Virus record (IMG/VR): IMGVR_UViG_3300042402_001880
Location: 1-29,225 of that record
Origin: a virus
Strand: one strand, 5' to 3'
Length of the DNA: 29,225 nt
Part shown: positions 4,742 to 21,596 of the stretch, piece by piece
Layout: each line of letters begins with the position of its first letter
Numbering within the stretch: the first letter of the stretch is position 1
The notes under the pieces: generated by a model
Told to the model about the DNA's origin: nothing
The model's input: the letters and a program-made list of their open reading frames with translations, nothing else
Databases searched by the model: none
Translations under genes and position numbers: made by a program

Positions 4742-4904
4742 CGATCATCAGAAATTAACTCCTGAGCAAGCACAGGCAATTTTATTATTTCAGATTGAGC
4801 AAAAACTAAGGTTTGCTATTGCAAAACAAGTTGAGAATAAATTTCACGGTATGTATCATAATGCATCACACGACATAGCACAATTTATAAGACACAGTGC
4901 TTAA
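4734..4904 (+). CDS. Small helical protein
   Basis: A 56-residue product beginning MDSDHQKLTPEQAQAILLFQ, predicted helical, with six histidines in all, most in the last third. It overlaps the preceding gene and converges with the minus-strand oxygenase, sharing bases 4901-4904 with its stop. No family recognised. Confidence 0.5.
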   Translation: MDSDHQKLTPEQAQAILLFQIEQKLRFAIAKQVENKFHGMYHNASHDIAQFIRHSA

Positions 4905-5515
4905 GGGTAATTAGATCCATCTGATTGCTCTACATCGCCAAACAACTCTTGATTTAATATAACTGGTTTGTCGACGGTACCTCTAACGAACGAAGTAGAA
5001 AAATACCTATAATCATTACTTGTAACCTTAGTAGTTCCATGTAGGATATTCCCACCATGTAAGATTAATGACCTAGCCTTCGGTTTGTGAACAAGATTAA
5101 TATCGGGGTACTTAATGGCACCACCTTCATACTCATCATTAAAATATACAACTACGCCATACCTAACATGTGTATCTGCTTCTTTGTTCCAATAGTCTCT
5201 ATGAGGCTCCATAAAGTTTCCACTTGGGTGTCTTTGTAACGAAAGTTTATCAATATAGTGTAAATCGGAAAAAAGGTTTTCAAGGTTTGCATTTATTGAG
5301 TCAAACTCTTTTGGCTTAGGTCCTAATTTTTGCTTTCCATAAAAGAAACCTTTTTTATATTGTTCGGAATCGCTATCTGTCCAACCAAAATCTTCTGATT
5401 TCCACCATTCGGACTCGTCTAAAGATTTACAATAATCTAAGATAGCGGTTTGTTCGTCAAGTGAAACAAAATCTTCTATCTCATAAATATCGGGGGATAG
5501 AAGGTTAACCTTCAC
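4901..5515 (-). CDS. 2OG-Fe(II) oxygenase, prolyl-4-hydroxylase type
   Basis: A 204-residue protein with the double-stranded beta-helix core of the prolyl-4-hydroxylase family, which couples 2-oxoglutarate decarboxylation to hydroxylation. Visible residues: metal ligands H105 and D107 (PHRDYW), distal H159 (ILHGTTKV) and R170 (DYRYFSTSF) for 2-oxoglutarate; YFNDEYEGGAIKYP is the family core strand. I chose GTG at 5515, which overlaps the previous gene, because the protein then starts like the other family members; an ATG at 5596 would add 27 odd residues. It is the only oxygenase outside the fibre and operon regions. Substrate unknown. Confidence 0.85.
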   Translation of the reverse strand: MKVNLLSPDIYEIEDFVSLDEQTAILDYCKSLDESEWWKSEDFGWTDSDSEQYKKGFFYGKQKLGPKPKEFDSINANLENLFSDLHYIDKLSLQRHPSGNFMEPHRDYWNKEADTHVRYGVVVYFNDEYEGGAIKYPDINLVHKPKARSLILHGGNILHGTTKVTSNDYRYFSTSFVRGTVDKPVILNQELFGDVEQSDGSNYP

Positions 5516-5705
5516 TGGCCAATTCCCACATACGAATATCAACAAACCCATATCTAGATAGATCAGCCAATTCCTCAGTATCTGCTTCAATGACAAGTCT
5601 CACATTTGACTCAATATCAAACCCTGGTTCGTAATCCTTCTGAGCATTGGTCAGATATGCTTCTTGAATCTTTTCTAAAATTGGTTTGTAATAAAACTTA
5701 GGCAA
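5505..5705 (-). CDS. Small protein between methyltransferase and oxygenase
   Basis: A 66-residue product beginning with a TTG start (MPKFYYKPILEKIQEAYLTN). AGGTGG lies five bases before the TTG, inside the end of the upstream gene. It overlaps both neighbours. The acidic, helical sequence is not recognised. The tight overlaps make co-expression with the oxygenase likely. Confidence 0.6.
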   Translation of the reverse strand: MPKFYYKPILEKIQEAYLTNAQKDYEPGFDIESNVRLVIEADTEELADLSRYGFVDIRMWELASEG

Positions 5706-9198: not shown

Positions 9199-10068
9199 AT
9201 GGCATTTCCAGGAGAACTCAATATAAACTACTACAAGGGTGATACCCATGAGTTTAAAGTATACCCTCAAAAAACAGATGGGTCAATCTTTTATCTAACG
9301 GACTATGGAAACGCTACTTTTACAATTGCTGAGACACGTGGGGTGGCAGGGGTAGATCTAGGACAGATCAGAGCAAGTGCGATAATCTCAAACGATAACA
9401 CATACATCACCTGTGCCATCACTCCAGACAATGCAAAACTTATGGATGCAGCAAAGACTTATGTATATGATATTCAAGTCTATGCTCAAGGACCAAATAC
9501 ATACGACAAAGTTTTTACTCTTTTGACAGGATCTATTTCTGTAACAGATGATGTAACACAAGATATTGGAACCCCTAATAAAGCAATTCCAACCTATAGA
9601 GTTATTTATCATAATATAAATGCAACAAGTGGAGCAATTCCAGTAGATACAAATGGATACCTTCCAAATCAAAATGTTGTCGTTGCAAACAACGGAACTC
9701 TTGCAAGATTAGGATACACTTTTGCTGGTTGGACAAAGTTTGCAGATGGTACAGGAACTGTATATTCAGCAGGATCAACAATTCCTCTTGCTAACGCAGA
9801 TATAAAACTTTATCCTAAGTGGAATGCTCCAACAGTTACATATGATAACCAGAGTGCAACAACAAGTCAAGTTGGAGGATCAACATCTTATATTCCGCAA
9901 TCGGCAATTGCGTCAATTCCAACAACAGCACCAATTAGAACAGGACATACTTTTGGCGGATGGTTTACTGGTCCTGCAGGATCGGGAACACAGGTAACAA
10001 ATAATTCTTATACTCCAGAATCTCCATACAATCCAGTTATACTTTATGCAAAGTGGACTGTAGCATGA
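9199..10068 (+). CDS. Baseplate-like protein with two Listeria-Bacteroides repeats
   Basis: A 289-residue protein. Residues 1-130 are a BppU-N-like beta domain (YYKGDTHEFKVYP ... LTGSISVTDDVT). Residues 133-209 and 211-287 are two Listeria-Bacteroides (InlB B-type) repeats, each with the signature GYTFAGW or GHTFGGW and ending in YPKW or YAKW. These small beta-grasp repeats occur in bacterial surface adhesins and would suit receptor contact. I start at 9199 because the TATAAT lies six bases upstream; an in-frame ATG at 9175 lies inside the previous gene. The next gene overlaps as ATGA. Confidence 0.75.
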   Translation: MAFPGELNINYYKGDTHEFKVYPQKTDGSIFYLTDYGNATFTIAETRGVAGVDLGQIRASAIISNDNTYITCAITPDNAKLMDAAKTYVYDIQVYAQGPNTYDKVFTLLTGSISVTDDVTQDIGTPNKAIPTYRVIYHNINATSGAIPVDTNGYLPNQNVVVANNGTLARLGYTFAGWTKFADGTGTVYSAGSTIPLANADIKLYPKWNAPTVTYDNQSATTSQVGGSTSYIPQSAIASIPTTAPIRTGHTFGGWFTGPAGSGTQVTNNSYTPESPYNPVILYAKWTVA

Positions 10069-10652
10069 CAGAGGTATTTGTATCAACTGACGATGTAAAA
10101 GTTATTGGTGGTACAGCCAATGTAAATGTTGAGGTTGACTTTGGCTCTCAAGGAGAAAGAGGAAATCTTTTTCTTTTTGGATATGGACATCCAGATGACC
10201 AAACAAATCCAGAAAATGTACAAGTCTTAGATATCTATATAAACATATTAACAACAGACTCTAAATACTTGATGATCTACCAGTTAATGCAGGTCAATGA
10301 TGTTCTAACCTGGGTTGAAATAAGCAAACTTATGGTAGACAAATATAGTGCTAATAAAAACGTATCATTTACTAACGGGGTAGCCACAGAAAGCATAGAC
10401 TTTAAGATTTCTAACATAGTCCCAACTAGTCTTATAAGTGGGCTAACTGCTTCACAGTTTAACATTCAATGTACCTTCTCAAATCCAACAAAACCCGTTG
10501 CCCACTCAATAGTAGTAAAGCCAATTACAATAGAGTCAGCAACAGGGGACATCATATTACCAGTAGGTATTAACGCTGCTGAGTTTTCAGGAAGTGCTTG
10601 GACAGGGCTTAGCGGAACACACGTAGTCCATTTCCTAATTACGGTGGTATAA
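10065..10652 (+). CDS. Virion-associated protein of unknown fold
   Basis: A 195-residue product beginning MTEVFVSTDDVKVIGGTANV. GSQGERGNLFLFGYGHP near residue 30 looks like the short Gly-rich turn before beta domains of phage fibres. The rest is beta-rich and ends in LITVV. Start overlaps the previous stop as ATGA. Its stop lies inside the TATAAT of the next promoter. Probably a structural or adhesin subunit. Confidence 0.6.
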   Translation: MTEVFVSTDDVKVIGGTANVNVEVDFGSQGERGNLFLFGYGHPDDQTNPENVQVLDIYINILTTDSKYLMIYQLMQVNDVLTWVEISKLMVDKYSANKNVSFTNGVATESIDFKISNIVPTSLISGLTASQFNIQCTFSNPTKPVAHSIVVKPITIESATGDIILPVGINAAEFSGSAWTGLSGTHVVHFLITVV

Positions 10653-10671: not shown

Positions 10672-13083
10672 ATGGCTGCTGAATATATTGATGACACAGA
10701 AACTGGCAACGGTCAATACCCCACCCTAATTCCTGGATATGACCAGTCTGCTGATATTCAAGAAGCCTTAAGACTATATCATTATGGATCAGTATCTCCA
10801 ACAGGTCAAGCGGTAATTCCAGCAAACTCTGCAGCAATTAACCCAAAATCAATTGCAGGATACCTAGATGCTTTAGATACAAAAATTGATAACTCTGTTG
10901 TAGATCAAGCCACACTTGCGGGTGTTGGTATTGACTGGAATGCCGTAACTACACAGTTTGACATTGACTCTACAGTTGCTACAAAATCTTATGTTGCAAA
11001 CTCAACATCCGTAGTCACTAAGGGTTCAAGTTTTACATTAACTTTAGCAGATGCTAGCAAGACTATTCTTCTTTCTACTACTACTCCAATGACTTTGACT
11101 ATCCCGTCAAATTCTTCAGTTGCTATTCCAATTGGATATCAATATAACCTTGTTGAAATTGGAACAGGAAAAACAACTCTATCTGCAAGTTCTGGAGTTA
11201 TCATAGGAAGCAAAAATTCACAACTATTTTTAGATGGACAGTACAGCAAAGGAACGCTATTAAAGATCGATACAGATACTTGGATTTTTTATGGCGATGT
11301 TTACGAAGGTGCAGTTATTGCTCCTGTTACTCCAGCAGTTACACCTGCAGTTACACCAGTAACACCAGTAACACCAGTTACTCCTGTAACTCCTGTAACT
11401 CCTGTAACACCTGTAACTCCAGTAACACCAGTAACTCCTGTAACGCCACCAGTAACTCCTGTAACGCCACCAGTTACACCCGTAGTAATGAGAACAGTTC
11501 CAAATGTTGTGGGCTTAACACAGGCAGCAGCAACAAGTGCAATTGATGCAGCAGGATTATCAGTAGGAGGTTTTGCAACGGGATCAACCACATATGATTC
11601 TGCAAATGCTGAAAAAGTTCAAAGCCAATCTCCTACAGCAGGAACATCGGTTCAATCAGGATCAAGTGTTAACCTTACAATGTGGAATTATGTTGCATCA
11701 GTAACACCAGCCATCCAGCCAAGTATCAGTATCATAGAGGAGTCTAGCGACTGTACTTCAATTAGTATTAATTGGATAGGAACTGGAGCATCATGGGCTG
11801 TTACAAATAGTACAGGCTGGACTGCTACTCAATCTGGAGAAGGAAGCGGTGGATATTGGACTGCATCATTACCTTGCGGAACAACAAAAACATCAACTCT
11901 AAGAATGTACTCTGGTCCAAATCAAACTGGAAGCCAGGAAACTCAGGCATTTACAATATCAACAACTTCATGTACAACATGTAATCAGCAGGTTACACCA
12001 GTAACAACTCAAACATATTACGCTTGTTGTACTGATAGCCCAGGGGTTAGTGGACAATATTCTAGTTCATCAGCAGCAACAACTGGTTTAAATGCACTCT
12101 GTGCAGCCACACCAGGAAGCACAATAGATCCACAAGGAGTCTCAACAACTGCACTAAATTGTACTTCTGTCACACCAGCAGTCACCCCTGCAACAGGTCC
12201 TAACACTTACACCTATACATACTATGACGGTAAGTGTAACTATCAAGTTAAGAACTCAAATGGAACTTATCTAAGAGACTACTCAACAAACCTTTGTACA
12301 AACTCAGGAACAGATGAGTCAGGGGCAACACTTCCAAACTGTAATCAATCAGGATGTACACCAGCATCAGTCACCCCTGCCGTTACACCTGCAGTCACAC
12401 CAGCAGTAACACCTGCAGTCACACCAGCAGTTACTCCAGCAGTTACTCCAGCACCAGCATGTCCAAACAATGACACCTATGGAGTTACAACTGGAGGAGT
12501 CTACGGTGGTTCTTGCCCTGATGGTTCATGTCCAGGATGTAGCAATTACCAAGAGAAGTGGTACAAGTGCTCTGATGGAAGTTCAGGAACTAAGTTCTAT
12601 GTAGGTCTTGGCTGTGCAGTAACACCTGCAGTAACACCTGCAGTAACACCTGCAGTAACACCTGCAGTAACACCTGCAGTTACACCTGCAGTTACTCCAG
12701 CAGTTACACCTGCAGTTACACCAGCAGTAACACCAGTTGACTGTACTTCATGTTCACCAACACAAAGTTATAACAGTACAAGGGCTGTATCAACAAGCGT
12801 CTGTGCTTCTGGAATAATGAACACATATGTTTGCTATACCCCAGGTACTTGCCCTAACATAACAACAGACACAGGTTGCCAACCTGCATCAGTAACCCCA
12901 GCCGTTACCCCAGCAGTAACACCTGCAGTAACACCTGCAGTAACACCTGCGGTCACACCAGCAGTAACACCTGCTGTTACCCCAGCCGTAACTCCTTCTG
13001 TTACCCCATCGAACTGTACTTGCTATCTTGATTACATCTGGCAGAATTGCCCAACATGTTGTAACGGTCAATGCGCTTACTAG
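10672..13083 (+). CDS. Long fibre/adhesin with Val-Thr-Pro repeats and PASTA domain
   Basis: An 803-residue protein. Order: N-terminal part (1-105) containing [14 protein letters not shown], shared with the fibre at 19057; a beta domain (105-215) also shared with that fibre's C-terminus; a Val-Thr-Pro repeat stalk (219-270); a PASTA domain (about 273-337, [20 protein letters not shown]), a family that binds peptidoglycan; then cysteine-bearing domains separated by Val-Thr-Pro-Ala repeats (567-593, 650-688, 741-779), ending in [11 protein letters not shown]. This looks like an extended, wall-binding receptor fibre. The repeats are rich in proline, a plausible substrate for the neighbouring hydroxylases; that link is inference. 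Confidence 0.8.
11326..11481 (+). repeat. Val-Thr-Pro repeat tract 1
   Basis: Short tandem repeats of 9-12 bases (GTAACTCCT, GTAACACCA and variants) coding for 52 residues built from Val, Thr, Pro and a few Ala. Synonymous codon drift shows selection on the protein. It forms the stalk before the PASTA domain. Confidence 0.85.
12370..13008 (+). repeat. Val-Thr-Pro-Ala repeat tracts 2-4
   Basis: Three tracts of the 12-base unit GTAACACCTGCA and variants: 12370-12450, 12619-12735 and 12892-13008, separated by cysteine-rich modules of about 55 residues. Units within a tract are nearly identical, suggesting recent expansion by slippage or recombination. Confidence 0.85.
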
Positions 13084-13116: not shown

Positions 13117-13353
13117 ATGGACAAAGAATTGTCAGCGTGGGAAAAATATAAGGAAAGTCTTGGAGAATCAAGACCTTGGCACTTGCTAGATAAAGAAAAT
13201 TATGTAGAAGATGAAGTAGCAAAAGAAAGATTTTCTATATGCAAAGGATGCCCAGAATTGATTAAATTAACAACACAGTGTAAAAAGTGTGGGTGTTTTA
13301 TGGCAGCAAAGACTAAACTTAAGATGGCTTCATGTCCAATAGGAAAATGGTAA
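13117..13353 (+). CDS. Small zinc-binding phage protein
   Basis: A 78-residue product with CKGC (about residues 42-45), CKKCGCFM (55-62) and a closing ASCPIGKW. The pattern C-x2-C ... C-x2-C-x-C-F-M ... K ... CP.GKW is, as I recall, conserved in small phage proteins found beside 2OG oxygenase genes; I cannot check this here. It overlaps the following oxygenase start as TAATG, so coupled expression is likely. A chaperone or partner role for the oxygenase is possible but unproven. Confidence 0.7.
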   Translation: MDKELSAWEKYKESLGESRPWHLLDKENYVEDEVAKERFSICKGCPELIKLTTQCKKCGCFMAAKTKLKMASCPIGKW

Positions 13354-13949
13354 TGAAAAAAAGACAGTTAGCACCAGGGATAGTCGTATACTCTGACGTT
13401 CTTGAAAATTATGATACTTTAGTTCAAGACATTGAAGAGGGACTTTCTACTTCTGGACAGCAGTGGATGCAATCTTCAATACAAAAAGATGACAAGATAC
13501 AGGTAGACACAAATTACAGAGACACAATGCTTATTAGTGTAAATTATAAAGATTTTATAAATGAAGATTTTATAAATTTACAAGACGCTTTTAATTCAAG
13601 TTTATCAAATATGTTTTTAACTGGTTTTGGTCCTTTAGAATCAGACTACAAACAAGATCATCAACTAGACACTACATCTCACGAAGAATATAGCATATTA
13701 AAATATGGCGAGGGACAAAAGTTTACAAACCATATTGACGATCATAAAGATCATCATAGAAGAATGTCCTGGGTCTACTATATTAATGATGACTATACTG
13801 GAGGAGAGATTTCTTTTCCAAGATTTAATTTAACATATAAACCAGTAGCAAATGAGTTTATAGTATTTCCATCAAACTATATTTACAACCACTCAGTTCT
13901 TCCAGTAATAGAAGGAACGAGATACGCAGTTGTTAGTTGGCTAAAATAA
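13353..13949 (+). CDS. 2OG-Fe(II) oxygenase, prolyl-4-hydroxylase type
   Basis: A 198-residue protein beginning MKKRQLAPGIVVYSDVLENY. Metal ligands H127 and D129 (NHIDDH), distal H180 (YIYNHSVLP), 2-oxoglutarate-binding R190 (EGTRYAVVSW), core YINDDYTGGEISFP at 143-156. The ATG overlaps the TAA of the zinc-protein gene. It lies directly after the Val-Thr-Pro fibre gene, which is the nearest candidate substrate. All residues needed for activity are present. Confidence 0.9.
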   Translation: MKKRQLAPGIVVYSDVLENYDTLVQDIEEGLSTSGQQWMQSSIQKDDKIQVDTNYRDTMLISVNYKDFINEDFINLQDAFNSSLSNMFLTGFGPLESDYKQDHQLDTTSHEEYSILKYGEGQKFTNHIDDHKDHHRRMSWVYYINDDYTGGEISFPRFNLTYKPVANEFIVFPSNYIYNHSVLPVIEGTRYAVVSWLK

Positions 13950-14568: not shown

Positions 14569-15132
14569 TTACTTGGGAAATTTACTCATCCAAAATTTGG
14601 TTCTTGGAGTGATGCCCTTCCATGAGGACCAATCATCTCCACCGTTTGTCATGTAGTATGCAATCTCTGCATTCTTGACGGGATTGAATAGTTCAGCGTT
14701 AGAGTCAAGATCAAACTTGGTTCTACGATCAGGACCAAGAGCGTCAATCATATTAATTTGGAACATACCATAAGACGAGTCACCAGTCTTGTGATTGCCG
14801 TTAAAAGCCAATGGTCGCCCATTAGACTCTTTTTTAGCCACTGCCCAAGCAACTACAAGGTCTTTACCCTTGAAGCCTACTAGTGAAAGCAGTTCCTTTA
14901 GTTCTAAATCAGTCAGAGAAACCTTGTTCTCAAAACTCTCTAACTTTTTAGCCTTAGAAACCAAAAAAACCTCTTTCGAGGCGGTTTCCAATGTCTGAGC
15001 CTGTTCTATGCTCAAGTTGTTTTTAGTATCAAGACCTGAATCAGCATTGGCTCCGTTCGACAAAACAGTTACTAATGCTACGATACTGAGTGTGCTAATG
15101 ATCTCTTTGTTTCTTTCGATAAATTTAATCAT
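14569..15132 (-). CDS. Secreted lysozyme / lytic transglycosylase
   Basis: A 187-residue protein. Residues 1-30 form a Sec-type signal (basic MIKFIERNK, hydrophobic core, ANA before D31). The catalytic domain has E102 (AKKESNGRP), GDSSYGMFQIN (117-127) and a WSSWKG motif near the end, typical of the lysozyme-like SLT fold that cleaves peptidoglycan glycan strands. I start at 15132, which has AAGGAGG at proper spacing; an upstream in-frame ATG lacks one. Being exported on its own, it may act in lysis without a holin, or locally on the wall. It has its own promoter and terminator. Confidence 0.8.
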   Translation of the reverse strand: MIKFIERNKEIISTLSIVALVTVLSNGANADSGLDTKNNLSIEQAQTLETASKEVFLVSKAKKLESFENKVSLTDLELKELLSLVGFKGKDLVVAWAVAKKESNGRPLAFNGNHKTGDSSYGMFQINMIDALGPDRRTKFDLDSNAELFNPVKNAEIAYYMTNGGDDWSSWKGITPRTKFWMSKFPK

Positions 15133-15153
15133 AGTTTCCTCCTTAGAAAACAA

Positions 15154-15178
15154 TAACACCCTGGTAGGTGTTACTACC
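15154..15178 (-). promoter_or_regulatory. Alternative hairpins in the lysozyme leader
   Basis: TAACACC (15154-15160) pairs with GGTGTTA (15167-15173); alternatively GGTAG (15163-15167) pairs with CTACC (15174-15178). The two overlap and exclude each other. They lie between the promoter and the ribosome site, so they could tune expression of the lysozyme. Confidence 0.35.
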
Positions 15179-19056: not shown

Positions 19057-20574
19057 ATGGCAACAAGAATGCAACAGCGCAGAGGAACTGCAGCGCAATG
19101 GACGGCTGCGAACCCAATTCTAGCAGCAGGTGAGATCGGATTTGAAACCGACACAAGTAAGTTTAAGATGGGTAACGGCTCTTCAGCCTGGTCTGCCCTG
19201 ACATATTTTGCTAATGCAGCAGAACTAGCAGCCATTGTTGATGCTGCTCCAGAGACCCTAAATACCCTTAATGAATTAGCAGCAGCACTAAATGATGATC
19301 CAAATTTCTTTGCAAATATTGCAGACAGTATTGCAGACAATATTGATTTGCACAATGTTACAACAGGAGTTCACGGAATTGCTAACACAGCACTACTTGC
19401 AACTCTAACAAATGTTTCTACTGCACAAACAGCAGCAGAAGGTTTTGCAACAACAGCAATTACAACTCATAATACTGACACAACGGACGTTCATGGTATT
19501 GCTGACACAGCAGCACTTGCAACAACCGCAAATGTAACAACGGCTATTGGCAATGCAGTGACAGGACACTCTTCAGATACCACAGAAGTTCACGGAATAT
19601 CAAATACAGCAAACTTAGTGTATGCTACAGATCTTTCAACCCATGCTTCAGATACTACCTCAATTCACGGTATTGAAAACACAGCAGACCTTGCTACAAA
19701 GACTTATGCAGACACAGCAGTGTCAACACATGCTGCTCTTACACTAGAGGTTCACGGTATTGCAAATACAGCACTTCTAGCAACACAAGATTATGTTGAT
19801 ACAGCAATTGGAACAGCAGCAGTAGATCAGTCAGCACTTGCTGGTGTAGGTCTTGACTGGAACGGAACAACATCCCAATACGATATTGACTCAACAGTAG
19901 CAACAACAACATACGTAGGAACTGAGATTGGTACACACAACTCAGATACTACATCTGTTCATGGTATTGCAGATACATCGCTTCTAGCACTCAAGTCAGA
20001 AGTTAACGCAATAACAAAAACTTCACTAGGACTTGAAAATGTTGATAATACAGCAGATGCATCAAAGCCAGTATCTACAGCACAGGCTTCAGCAATCGCC
20101 ACAGCCAAGTCAGAAGCAATTTCAGATGCTACATCACAGGTAAACGCTCTTCTAGCAGGTGCCCCAGCAGCACTTAATACACTTGATGAACTTGCTGCAG
20201 CACTTGGAGATGACGCAAACTTTGCTTCATCAGTAACAACTAGCCTTGGATTAAAGGTAGATTCTTTAACCCCAATTTCACAAAAGACAGCATCATACAC
20301 ACTTTCATCACTAACTGAAAGAGACGACCTAATTGAAATGGGTTCAGCCTCAGCACTAACTCTTACAATTCCACCAGCATCAGCAGTTGACTATCCAATT
20401 GGAACTTCAATTGATATTCTTCAAACTGGAGCAGGACAGGTTACAATTGCAGCAGGTGCAGGAGTAACAGTTAATGCAACACCTGGCTTGAAACTTCGTA
20501 CAACTTGGTCATCTTGTACTCTCTTTAAGAGAGCAGCAAATACTTGGGTTGTCTACGGCGACTTGACAGCGTAA
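19057..20574 (+). CDS. Long tail fibre with VHGIADT repeats
   Basis: A 505-residue protein. Residues 6-51 (QQRRGTAAQWTAANPILAAG ... GNGSSAWSAL) match the N-terminal domain seen in phage tropism determinants and many fibres. The shaft has six repeats of DTTxVHGIADTAxLAT. A VDQSALAGVGLDWNGTTSQY segment and the C-terminal beta domain (about 405-505) are shared with the Val-Thr-Pro fibre at 10672. AAGGAG precedes the ATG. Likely receptor-binding. Confidence 0.75.
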   Translation: MATRMQQRRGTAAQWTAANPILAAGEIGFETDTSKFKMGNGSSAWSALTYFANAAELAAIVDAAPETLNTLNELAAALNDDPNFFANIADSIADNIDLHNVTTGVHGIANTALLATLTNVSTAQTAAEGFATTAITTHNTDTTDVHGIADTAALATTANVTTAIGNAVTGHSSDTTEVHGISNTANLVYATDLSTHASDTTSIHGIENTADLATKTYADTAVSTHAALTLEVHGIANTALLATQDYVDTAIGTAAVDQSALAGVGLDWNGTTSQYDIDSTVATTTYVGTEIGTHNSDTTSVHGIADTSLLALKSEVNAITKTSLGLENVDNTADASKPVSTAQASAIATAKSEAISDATSQVNALLAGAPAALNTLDELAAALGDDANFASSVTTSLGLKVDSLTPISQKTASYTLSSLTERDDLIEMGSASALTLTIPPASAVDYPIGTSIDILQTGAGQVTIAAGAGVTVNATPGLKLRTTWSSCTLFKRAANTWVVYGDLTA

Positions 20575-20606: not shown

Positions 20607-21596
20607 ATGGCAGCAGGTAAAAAGATAGGTAAGAAGTCCCAAGCGTCAAATGACTTTTTGGAGCCATTAGCACCAACAGGTGTTACTGGAACAAACATTG
20701 GAACAGATCGTCCATTTAATAATGGAGCAGTCTCTGTAGCGTTTTCTTTACCTGCACTTTCACCTGCTGCTACCTCTTTTACAGTAACAGCAAGCACAGG
20801 ACAAACAGCGACTGGAGCATCTTCTCCTATTACTGTAACTGGAATTGCTTCTTCAGCAACCCCAACATTTACAGTAACAGCAACTAATGCTGCAGGAACT
20901 TCAGCAGCGTCTTCTGCCTCTGCTGCAGTGACTGTAACAACAGTACCAGCAACACCATCTGCCCCAACAGCAACAGCAGGAGTAGATGCTGACTCAGTAA
21001 CTTGGACAGCCCCAGCAAATGGAGGAAGTGCAATTACTTCTTATGTTTGGGCAGCATCAGATGGAAAGACTAACTCAACAGCAGCAACATCTGTATCAGT
21101 TGGCCAAGAAGCAAATACAGCACAGACTTATACCGTCAGAGCAATAAATGCTAACGGAACATCTGCAACATCTCCTGCTTCTACTAGCGTAACTACTATT
21201 GCTCCGTTCTTCCCGTTCTTCCCATTCTTCCCGCCATTTTTCCCACCATTCTTCCCACCGTTCTTCCCATTCTTCCCACCATTCTTCCCGTTTTTCCCAC
21301 CATTCTTCCCGTTCTTCCCACCATTCTTCCCACCTTACTTCCCATTCTTCCCACCTTACTTCCCATTCTTCCCACCTTACTTCCCTTACTTCCCATTCTT
21401 CCCACCTTACTTCCCATTCTTCCCACCTTACTTCCCTTACTTCCCATTCTTCCCACCTTACTTCCCATTCTTCCCACCATTCTTCCCGTTCTTCCCATAT
21501 TTCCCACCAGCACCACCAACAGGAGGATGTACTAATTGCTACAAGGCATGCTGGTCTTGCAGTTGCCCATCATGTTGTGGTTCTTGTGCCTACTAA
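20607..21596 (+). CDS. FN3 adhesin with Pro-Phe-Phe repeat and cysteine-rich tail
   Basis: A 329-residue protein. Two FN3-like domains (about 22-110 and 117-197) are followed by 105 residues (200-304) made only of Pro, Phe and Tyr, except for a single Ala near the end, in units such as PFFP, PFFPP and PYFP. The last 25 residues hold eight cysteines and end in CPSCCGSCAY, like the end of the fibre at 10672 ([11 protein letters not shown]). I know no family with such a tract. It may be an aromatic, extended stalk or a surface-sticking segment. The tract is the most extreme candidate proline-hydroxylase substrate here; that is inference. Confidence 0.75.
   Translation: MAAGKKIGKKSQASNDFLEPLAPTGVTGTNIGTDRPFNNGAVSVAFSLPALSPAATSFTVTASTGQTATGASSPITVTGIASSATPTFTVTATNAAGTSAASSASAAVTVTTVPATPSAPTATAGVDADSVTWTAPANGGSAITSYVWAASDGKTNSTAATSVSVGQEANTAQTYTVRAINANGTSATSPASTSVTTIAPFFPFFPFFPPFFPPFFPPFFPFFPPFFPFFPPFFPFFPPFFPPYFPFFPPYFPFFPPYFPYFPFFPPYFPFFPPYFPYFPFFPPYFPFFPPFFPFFPYFPPAPPTGGCTNCYKACWSCSCPSCCGSCAY
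21204..21518 (+). repeat. Pro-Phe/Tyr-Phe coding repeat
   Basis: Pyrimidine-rich repeats of 9, 12, 15 and 21 bases (CCATTCTTC, CCACCTTACTTC) spanning 315 bases. Codons vary only at silent positions and at Phe/Tyr. Long open frames on the other strand and in another plus frame here are by-products of the repeat. Confidence 0.85.

Follow-up and report, generated by a model that had tools for sequence, protein, structure and literature searches.

A modular fibre gene of a probable freshwater actinophage, with exchanged cassettes and a prolyl-hydroxylase-like neighbour that may match its linkers

Introduction

Which parts of a phage fibre are exchanged between relatives, which are kept, and what a 2OG-Fe(II) oxygenase encoded close to such a fibre may act on are the questions raised by the locus described here. 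It lies in a 29,225-base IMG/VR fragment of an uncultured freshwater phage, which was analysed as a whole and is referred to as the window. Few auxiliary genes are as common in aquatic phages as those of 2OG-Fe(II) oxygenases, and the viral use of prolyl 4-hydroxylase has been termed cryptic (PMC9301287). The match between the linkers of the fibre and the neighbouring enzyme offers a concrete and testable candidate substrate. The fibre family also illustrates how phages of the dominant freshwater actinobacteria may change their host-binding heads, namely by trading small cassettes at repeat linkers; among the exchanged cassettes is a PASTA domain, of a kind that senses the cell wall, which has been incorporated into a phage fibre. 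A sequence-only reading of the gene had described its domain order, proposed wall recognition by the PASTA domain, and expected the length of its stalk to vary between isolates. The present analysis adds that modules are exchanged between fibres, that the linkers inside any one fibre are uniform, and that a prolyl-hydroxylase-like neighbour is matched to those linkers.

Architecture of the Fibre Gene

The features of the locus are collected in Table 1. The order that had been read from the sequence, a fibre N-terminus and beta module followed by a Val-Thr-Pro (VTP) stalk, a PASTA domain, and Cys modules alternating with VTPA tracts, is borne out by the open reading frame, Pfam, and phrog matches. 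Residues 1–211 match the tail fiber family phrog_16053 (E 1.2e-7), the N-terminus has 424 relatives in IMG/VR, and the model of the beta module resembles phage spike and baseplate proteins in Foldseek. Because its beta module resembles tail and spike proteins, the fibre is a candidate virion component that would bind to the host. AlphaFold2 (AF2) assigns a pLDDT below 50 to most of the fibre outside PASTA, linkers included.

Table 1. Features of the fibre gene and its neighbourhood in the window.
Feature	Positions	Strand	Remark
Collagen-like gene	8460		tail/fibre neighbourhood (family scans)
List_Bact repeats	9175		tail/fibre neighbourhood (family scans)
Upstream gene	10053-10652	+	co-varies with fibre N-terminus, rho 0.73
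Modular fibre gene, 803 aa	10672-13083	+	real ORF
Conserved N-terminal part with motif, aa 1-112	10672-11007	+	alignment of relatives
Beta module, aa 113-211	11008-11304	+	common to Gordonia phage minor tail proteins
Val-Thr-Pro stalk, aa 219-272	11326-11487	+	9-base units
PASTA domain, aa 275-336	11494-11679	+	Pfam, AF2, Foldseek
Fibronectin-like beta segment, aa 350-432	11719-11967	+	low-confidence model
Cys module 1 (YYACC..), aa 448-500	12013-12171	+	
Cys module 2, aa 510-562	12199-12357	+	cluster C13; occurs in VAP-linker fibres too
VTPA tract	12367-12453	+	left junction of module swap in L006, L007
Cys module 3 (CPNNDTYG)	12460-12615	+	two other modules in its place in L006, L007
VTPA tract	12616-12735	+	10 units in window, 9 in L004 and L005
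Cys module 4 (CTSCSPTQ..)	12742-12879	+	cluster C22
VTPA tract	12889-13008	+	10 units in window, 12 in L006
Cys-rich C-terminal tip	13015-13080	+	
DUF6171 gene	13117-13353	+	between fibre and oxygenase; relative in 137 loci
2OG-Fe(II) oxygenase, predicted prolyl-hydroxylase fold	13332-13949	+	HxD..H kept
Lysozyme-like gene (SLT_3)	14569-15159	-	conserved, median identity 95%
Mtd_N protein	19057		tail/fibre neighbourhood
Second Cys-tipped fibre	20607-21596		Fn3-like part, long PFFPPFFP tract, Cys tip

Genomic Setting and Probable Host

Compared with the window, the fibre N-terminus of the related loci has a median identity of 49% and the lysozyme gene, which lies 1.5 kb downstream of the fibre, one of 95%; the fibre is hypervariable within a stable genomic setting. 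Because the upstream gene covaries with the fibre N-terminus (Table 1), the product of the former and the latter may interact. The second fibre of the window ends in a Cys tip, CTNCYKACWSCSCPSCCGSCAY, that resembles the tip of the 803-residue fibre. Between positions 2345 and 2819, amid small ORFs, the window is AT-rich with TATATA/GGGGG repeats (TRF periods 32 and 15).

Actinophages are commonly recognised by the gene whiB (PMC6802176, PMC10202952). WhiB is found in all eight relatives of the 29-kb window that are longer than 100 kb, and a freshwater actinobacterium is therefore the most likely host. A cyanophage origin was rejected, since psbA was absent from all ten relatives searched. Assignment of a host through similarity to bacterial genomes was abandoned because 84,980 species genomes of bacteria and archaea contain no relative of either the fibre N-terminus or the lysozyme. 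The T4-type capsid protein (Gp23) was not found in the relatives, in a search whose control also gave no signal, and the terminase phrog_2 was detected in one of seven relatives. A diversity-generating retroelement was rejected, as neither a YxDD motif scan nor the family scans of the window, which is a fragment, revealed a gene of RT type. A setting that is similar by its description is the host-recognition island of Nanopelagicales phages, which are likewise freshwater actinophages with WhiB, a variable island, and tail fibre and collagen-like genes (PMC10202952); PASTA or an oxygenase is not mentioned there.

The PASTA Domain

PASTA is the sole Pfam domain in the ORF (PF03793, residues 275–336, E 1.3e-10), and its score of 41.5 bits, well over the gathering cut-off (23.2), upholds the domain that the sequence-only reading had placed at residues 273–337. 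AF2 predicts a confident PASTA-like fold with a pLDDT of 72–90 over residues 271–340, in which the elements E273, H284, E297, E315, E326, and E332 make up the beta-alpha-beta-beta fold of PASTA. Foldseek aligns residues 271–340 with the third PASTA domain of PknB (3ouv; TM 0.85 on the target, 1.8 Å) and also pairs them with PASTA domains of PBP1 and PrkC. The likeness to the PASTA domains of PknB, PrkC, PBP1, and PBP2x (PF03793) consists in the profile match above cut-off and the predicted fold. Those domains sit in membrane kinases or PBPs, whereas the fibre holds a single copy between the VTP stalk and the Cys modules. No relative of the fibre PASTA was found by tblastn in isolate phages, and PASTA sequences, once aligned, proved too diverse to serve for scanning the collection.

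The PASTA region of actinobacterial PknB binds muropeptides (PMC3145798). By analogy with it, and because the host is likely actinobacterial, putative wall recognition by the fibre PASTA is plausible. PASTA is the commonest named domain of the related fibre backbones, yet optional, and because only 10 of 55 backbones carry it, it cannot be the general receptor function of the fibre family.

Exchange of Cassettes between Fibre Backbones

The parsing of 84 distinct fibres, which came from 43 initial loci and a further two scans, gave 443 modules that fall into 77 clusters, 50 of them recurrent. Of 158 small modules, 140 contain an even number of cysteines, with exactly four in 89; because the numbers are mostly even, these modules are probably disulfide-stapled beads. 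Two loci from different samples, L006 and L007, match the window at 99.9% up to position 12397 and at 97.6–98.7% from position 12643. Between these positions, two other modules replace the CPNNDTYG module, and both junctions lie inside VTPA tracts. The CPNNDTYG module shares 98.6% DNA identity over 146 bp with a module of a VAP-linker fibre that has another N-terminus. This pair is one of 12 among those listed in which modules are 92–100% identical in DNA across different backbones, the N-terminal DNA of the listed pairs being mostly 67–83% identical or not alignable. Because modules of such identity stand on different backbones, cassettes have been exchanged recently between them.

Mosaic phage receptor-binding proteins, such as tail fibres and spikes, share with this family a conserved N-terminal attachment part, exchanged distal domains, and recent mosaicism above 90% identity (PMC10684548), and the fibres studied here show that pattern, with a conserved N-terminal part and distal domains interchanged at high identity. 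Unlike those proteins, they carry many Cys modules of 30–60 residues, Pro-rich linkers that are uniform per gene, and cassette borders at the linkers. The PASTA domain and the Cys modules could also be spacers that set length, with receptor binding taking place elsewhere, for instance in the C-terminal tip, the Mtd_N-type protein at 19057, or the fibre at 20607. Several PASTA domains do not bind peptidoglycan, and the optional, mid-chain position of PASTA and the presence of other fibre genes in the window also fit such a role. We nevertheless hold it doubtful, as receptor-binding parts under selection typically show quick exchange of modules while the backbone stays fixed (PMC10684548), and neighbours such as the lysozyme gene are conserved.

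The Downstream Oxygenase

Two genes follow the fibre on the same strand (Table 1). The product of the DUF6171 gene is possibly a fibre assembly factor. The closest PDB sequences to the enzyme encoded at 13332–13949 are prolyl 4-hydroxylases, 3itq/5hv0 being the best. Its model (pLDDT 93.9) has the double-stranded beta-helix fold of 2OG oxygenases, and all 50 of the PDB matches listed for it are prolyl hydroxylases; the third of these is an algal enzyme with (Ser-Pro)5 bound, and the PBCV-1 enzyme is also among them. The iron ligands H134, D136, and H187 are invariant, giving the HxD..H motif, and a basic residue (R/K) for 2OG stands next to Y198. By predicted structure, the protein thus looks like a prolyl hydroxylase. 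It shares with the viral enzyme of PBCV-1 and the algal enzyme the fold, the metal-binding residues, and the presence of Pro-rich repeat proteins in the same genome, and the PBCV-1 enzyme, as cited in PMC9301287, is a precedent for a virus-encoded enzyme of such kind. In contrast to these, the virus here is an actinophage, and the enzyme gene is a near neighbour of the fibre gene, whose linker motif it tracks.

About 40% of the backbones are without a 2OG gene within 1.5 kb downstream. The idea that the gene occurs only beside Pro-rich linkers was rejected because the Pro fraction of the linkers does not differ with its presence (p 0.8). The window contains nine 2OG-Fe(II) oxygenase genes, one on the minus strand (4901–5596) and the others on the plus strand, beginning at 13332, 22181, 23621, 25533, 26156, 27061, 27808, and 28482, so that seven of the nine form one run from 22181. 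Relatives longer than 100 kb have 1 to 12 such genes by PF13640, the highest count being that of a 116-kb relative. With nine present in the window, not all of them can serve the 803-residue fibre.

Covariation of Linkers and Enzyme

The linkers of one fibre resemble one another far more than those of different fibres (cosine 0.76 vs 0.24, with a permutation maximum of 0.287), and the value is 0.22 even between fibres whose N-termini are 70–80% identical. Each gene thus has uniform linkers of its own, while modules pass from gene to gene. Phe-bearing linker types (FSVFTFTPF, FGFSPF) occur in fibres of the same family at L042, L044, L014, and L015.

In the first loci, linker similarity correlates with the identity of the oxygenase (rho 0.55, or 0.47 when this discovery set was re-parsed with the stricter script of the replication). 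The replication test was set before the new loci were fetched, which comprise 32 new backbones, 20 of them with the enzyme. It gave a rho of 0.49 between linker and 2OG enzyme (p 0.003; Mantel permutations treat loci as exchangeable), compared with lower values for DUF6171 (0.15), the fibre N-terminus (0.09), the upstream gene (−0.12), and the lysozyme (−0.15), and the partial correlation given DUF6171 and N-terminus is 0.50 (p 0.001). Module content of the fibre in the new set correlates with the enzyme at 0.24 (p 0.07) and the C-terminal tip at 0.04, and the linker effect persists when both are held fixed. For Pro-type linkers only, the replication gave a rho of 0.34 and a partial correlation of 0.43; the signal within this type is generally weaker (0.25–0.34) and is gone when just 13 very distant enzymes are kept. 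When enzymes are collapsed at 75% identity, rho is 0.49 across 28 loci and 0.30 for Pro-type linkers only, fading at 65%. The nearest 2OG neighbour below 85% identity has the same linker type in 39 of 45 loci, whereas the nearest DUF6171 agrees in 22 and the nearest N-terminus in 21 (chance 36%).

Shared descent of enzyme and linker as a block could add to this signal. It is probably not the whole cause, because the DUF6171 gene that lies between the two tracks the linkers only weakly. An alternative keeps the modular adhesin and lets the oxygenase act elsewhere, on nucleic acid, host proteins, or metabolism, with the genes downstream moving together with the C-terminal half of the fibre. The fibre and enzyme genes are indeed close, about 250 bp apart, the identities of 2OG enzyme and DUF6171 correlate (rho 0.43), and phage 2OG oxygenases are widespread with their role unknown (PMC12774648, PMC9301287). 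We consider this alternative rather unlikely: in the same loci, the intervening DUF6171 follows the linkers at only 0.09–0.23, and the enzyme is hardly followed by the modules that alternate with the linkers (0.09–0.24), for which reason joint movement was rejected as the cause of the covariation. The linker motif follows the sequence of the enzyme and hardly that of other genes or modules, a pattern explained most simply by action of the enzyme on the linkers, whose probable modifier it is.

Proposed Mechanism

We give a probability of about 0.58 to the reading that the gene encodes a modular adhesin and that the phage has a dedicated enzyme for hydroxylating its Pro linkers, the hydroxylation being read from covariation and predicted fold. 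The fibre would be a beads-on-a-string virion adhesin of a freshwater actinophage, its modules would be alternative heads that attach to the host surface, and among them the PASTA module would bind peptidoglycan stem peptides of the actinobacterial wall. The downstream 2OG-Fe(II) oxygenase would hydroxylate prolines in the Thr-Pro units of the fibre's own linkers, probably stiffening them or creating sites for further modification, with each enzyme matched to its own linker motif. The linker repeats would act as recombination sites at which modules are swapped in frame. The wider proposal is that freshwater actinophages have hydroxyproline-rich fibres, the Pro-rich linkers of which are modified by a phage prolyl hydroxylase encoded beside the fibre gene, the enzyme and linker motif co-evolving as a pair while the binding modules shuffle freely; we regard its chances as evenly balanced.

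Repeat Tracts in Near-Identical Contigs

The tandem repeats are confirmed by TRF, for example at 12615–12734 (period 12, 10 copies, 93%). Near-identical phages had been expected to differ in repeat number, with near-identical 12-base units forming the stalk. This holds for the C-terminal VTPA tracts, which are built of such units and vary from 5 to 12 units by whole 12-base steps, and not for the pre-PASTA stalk, which consists mostly of 9-base units, with a count of 16 VTP units in each of the seven near-identical contigs. Whole Cys modules and the later VTPA tracts are therefore the changing parts, and the stalk is constant. That the length differences and swaps are artefacts of short-read assembly is very improbable, even with tandem repeats and contigs that are all metagenomic, because no tract is longer than about 160 bases, alleles are shared across separate samples (L004 with L005, L006 with L007), and the swapped modules are in frame, open, and present in other phages. 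Any one tract taken singly could still contain an assembly error.

Directly 3′ of the fibre, the DUF6171 gene encodes paired cysteines. The related fibres L030, L033, L034, L042, and L044 have a Hint domain, which is intein-like, at their end, Pfam Hint_2 being found in three backbones, and some of the fibres with this ending may process themselves.
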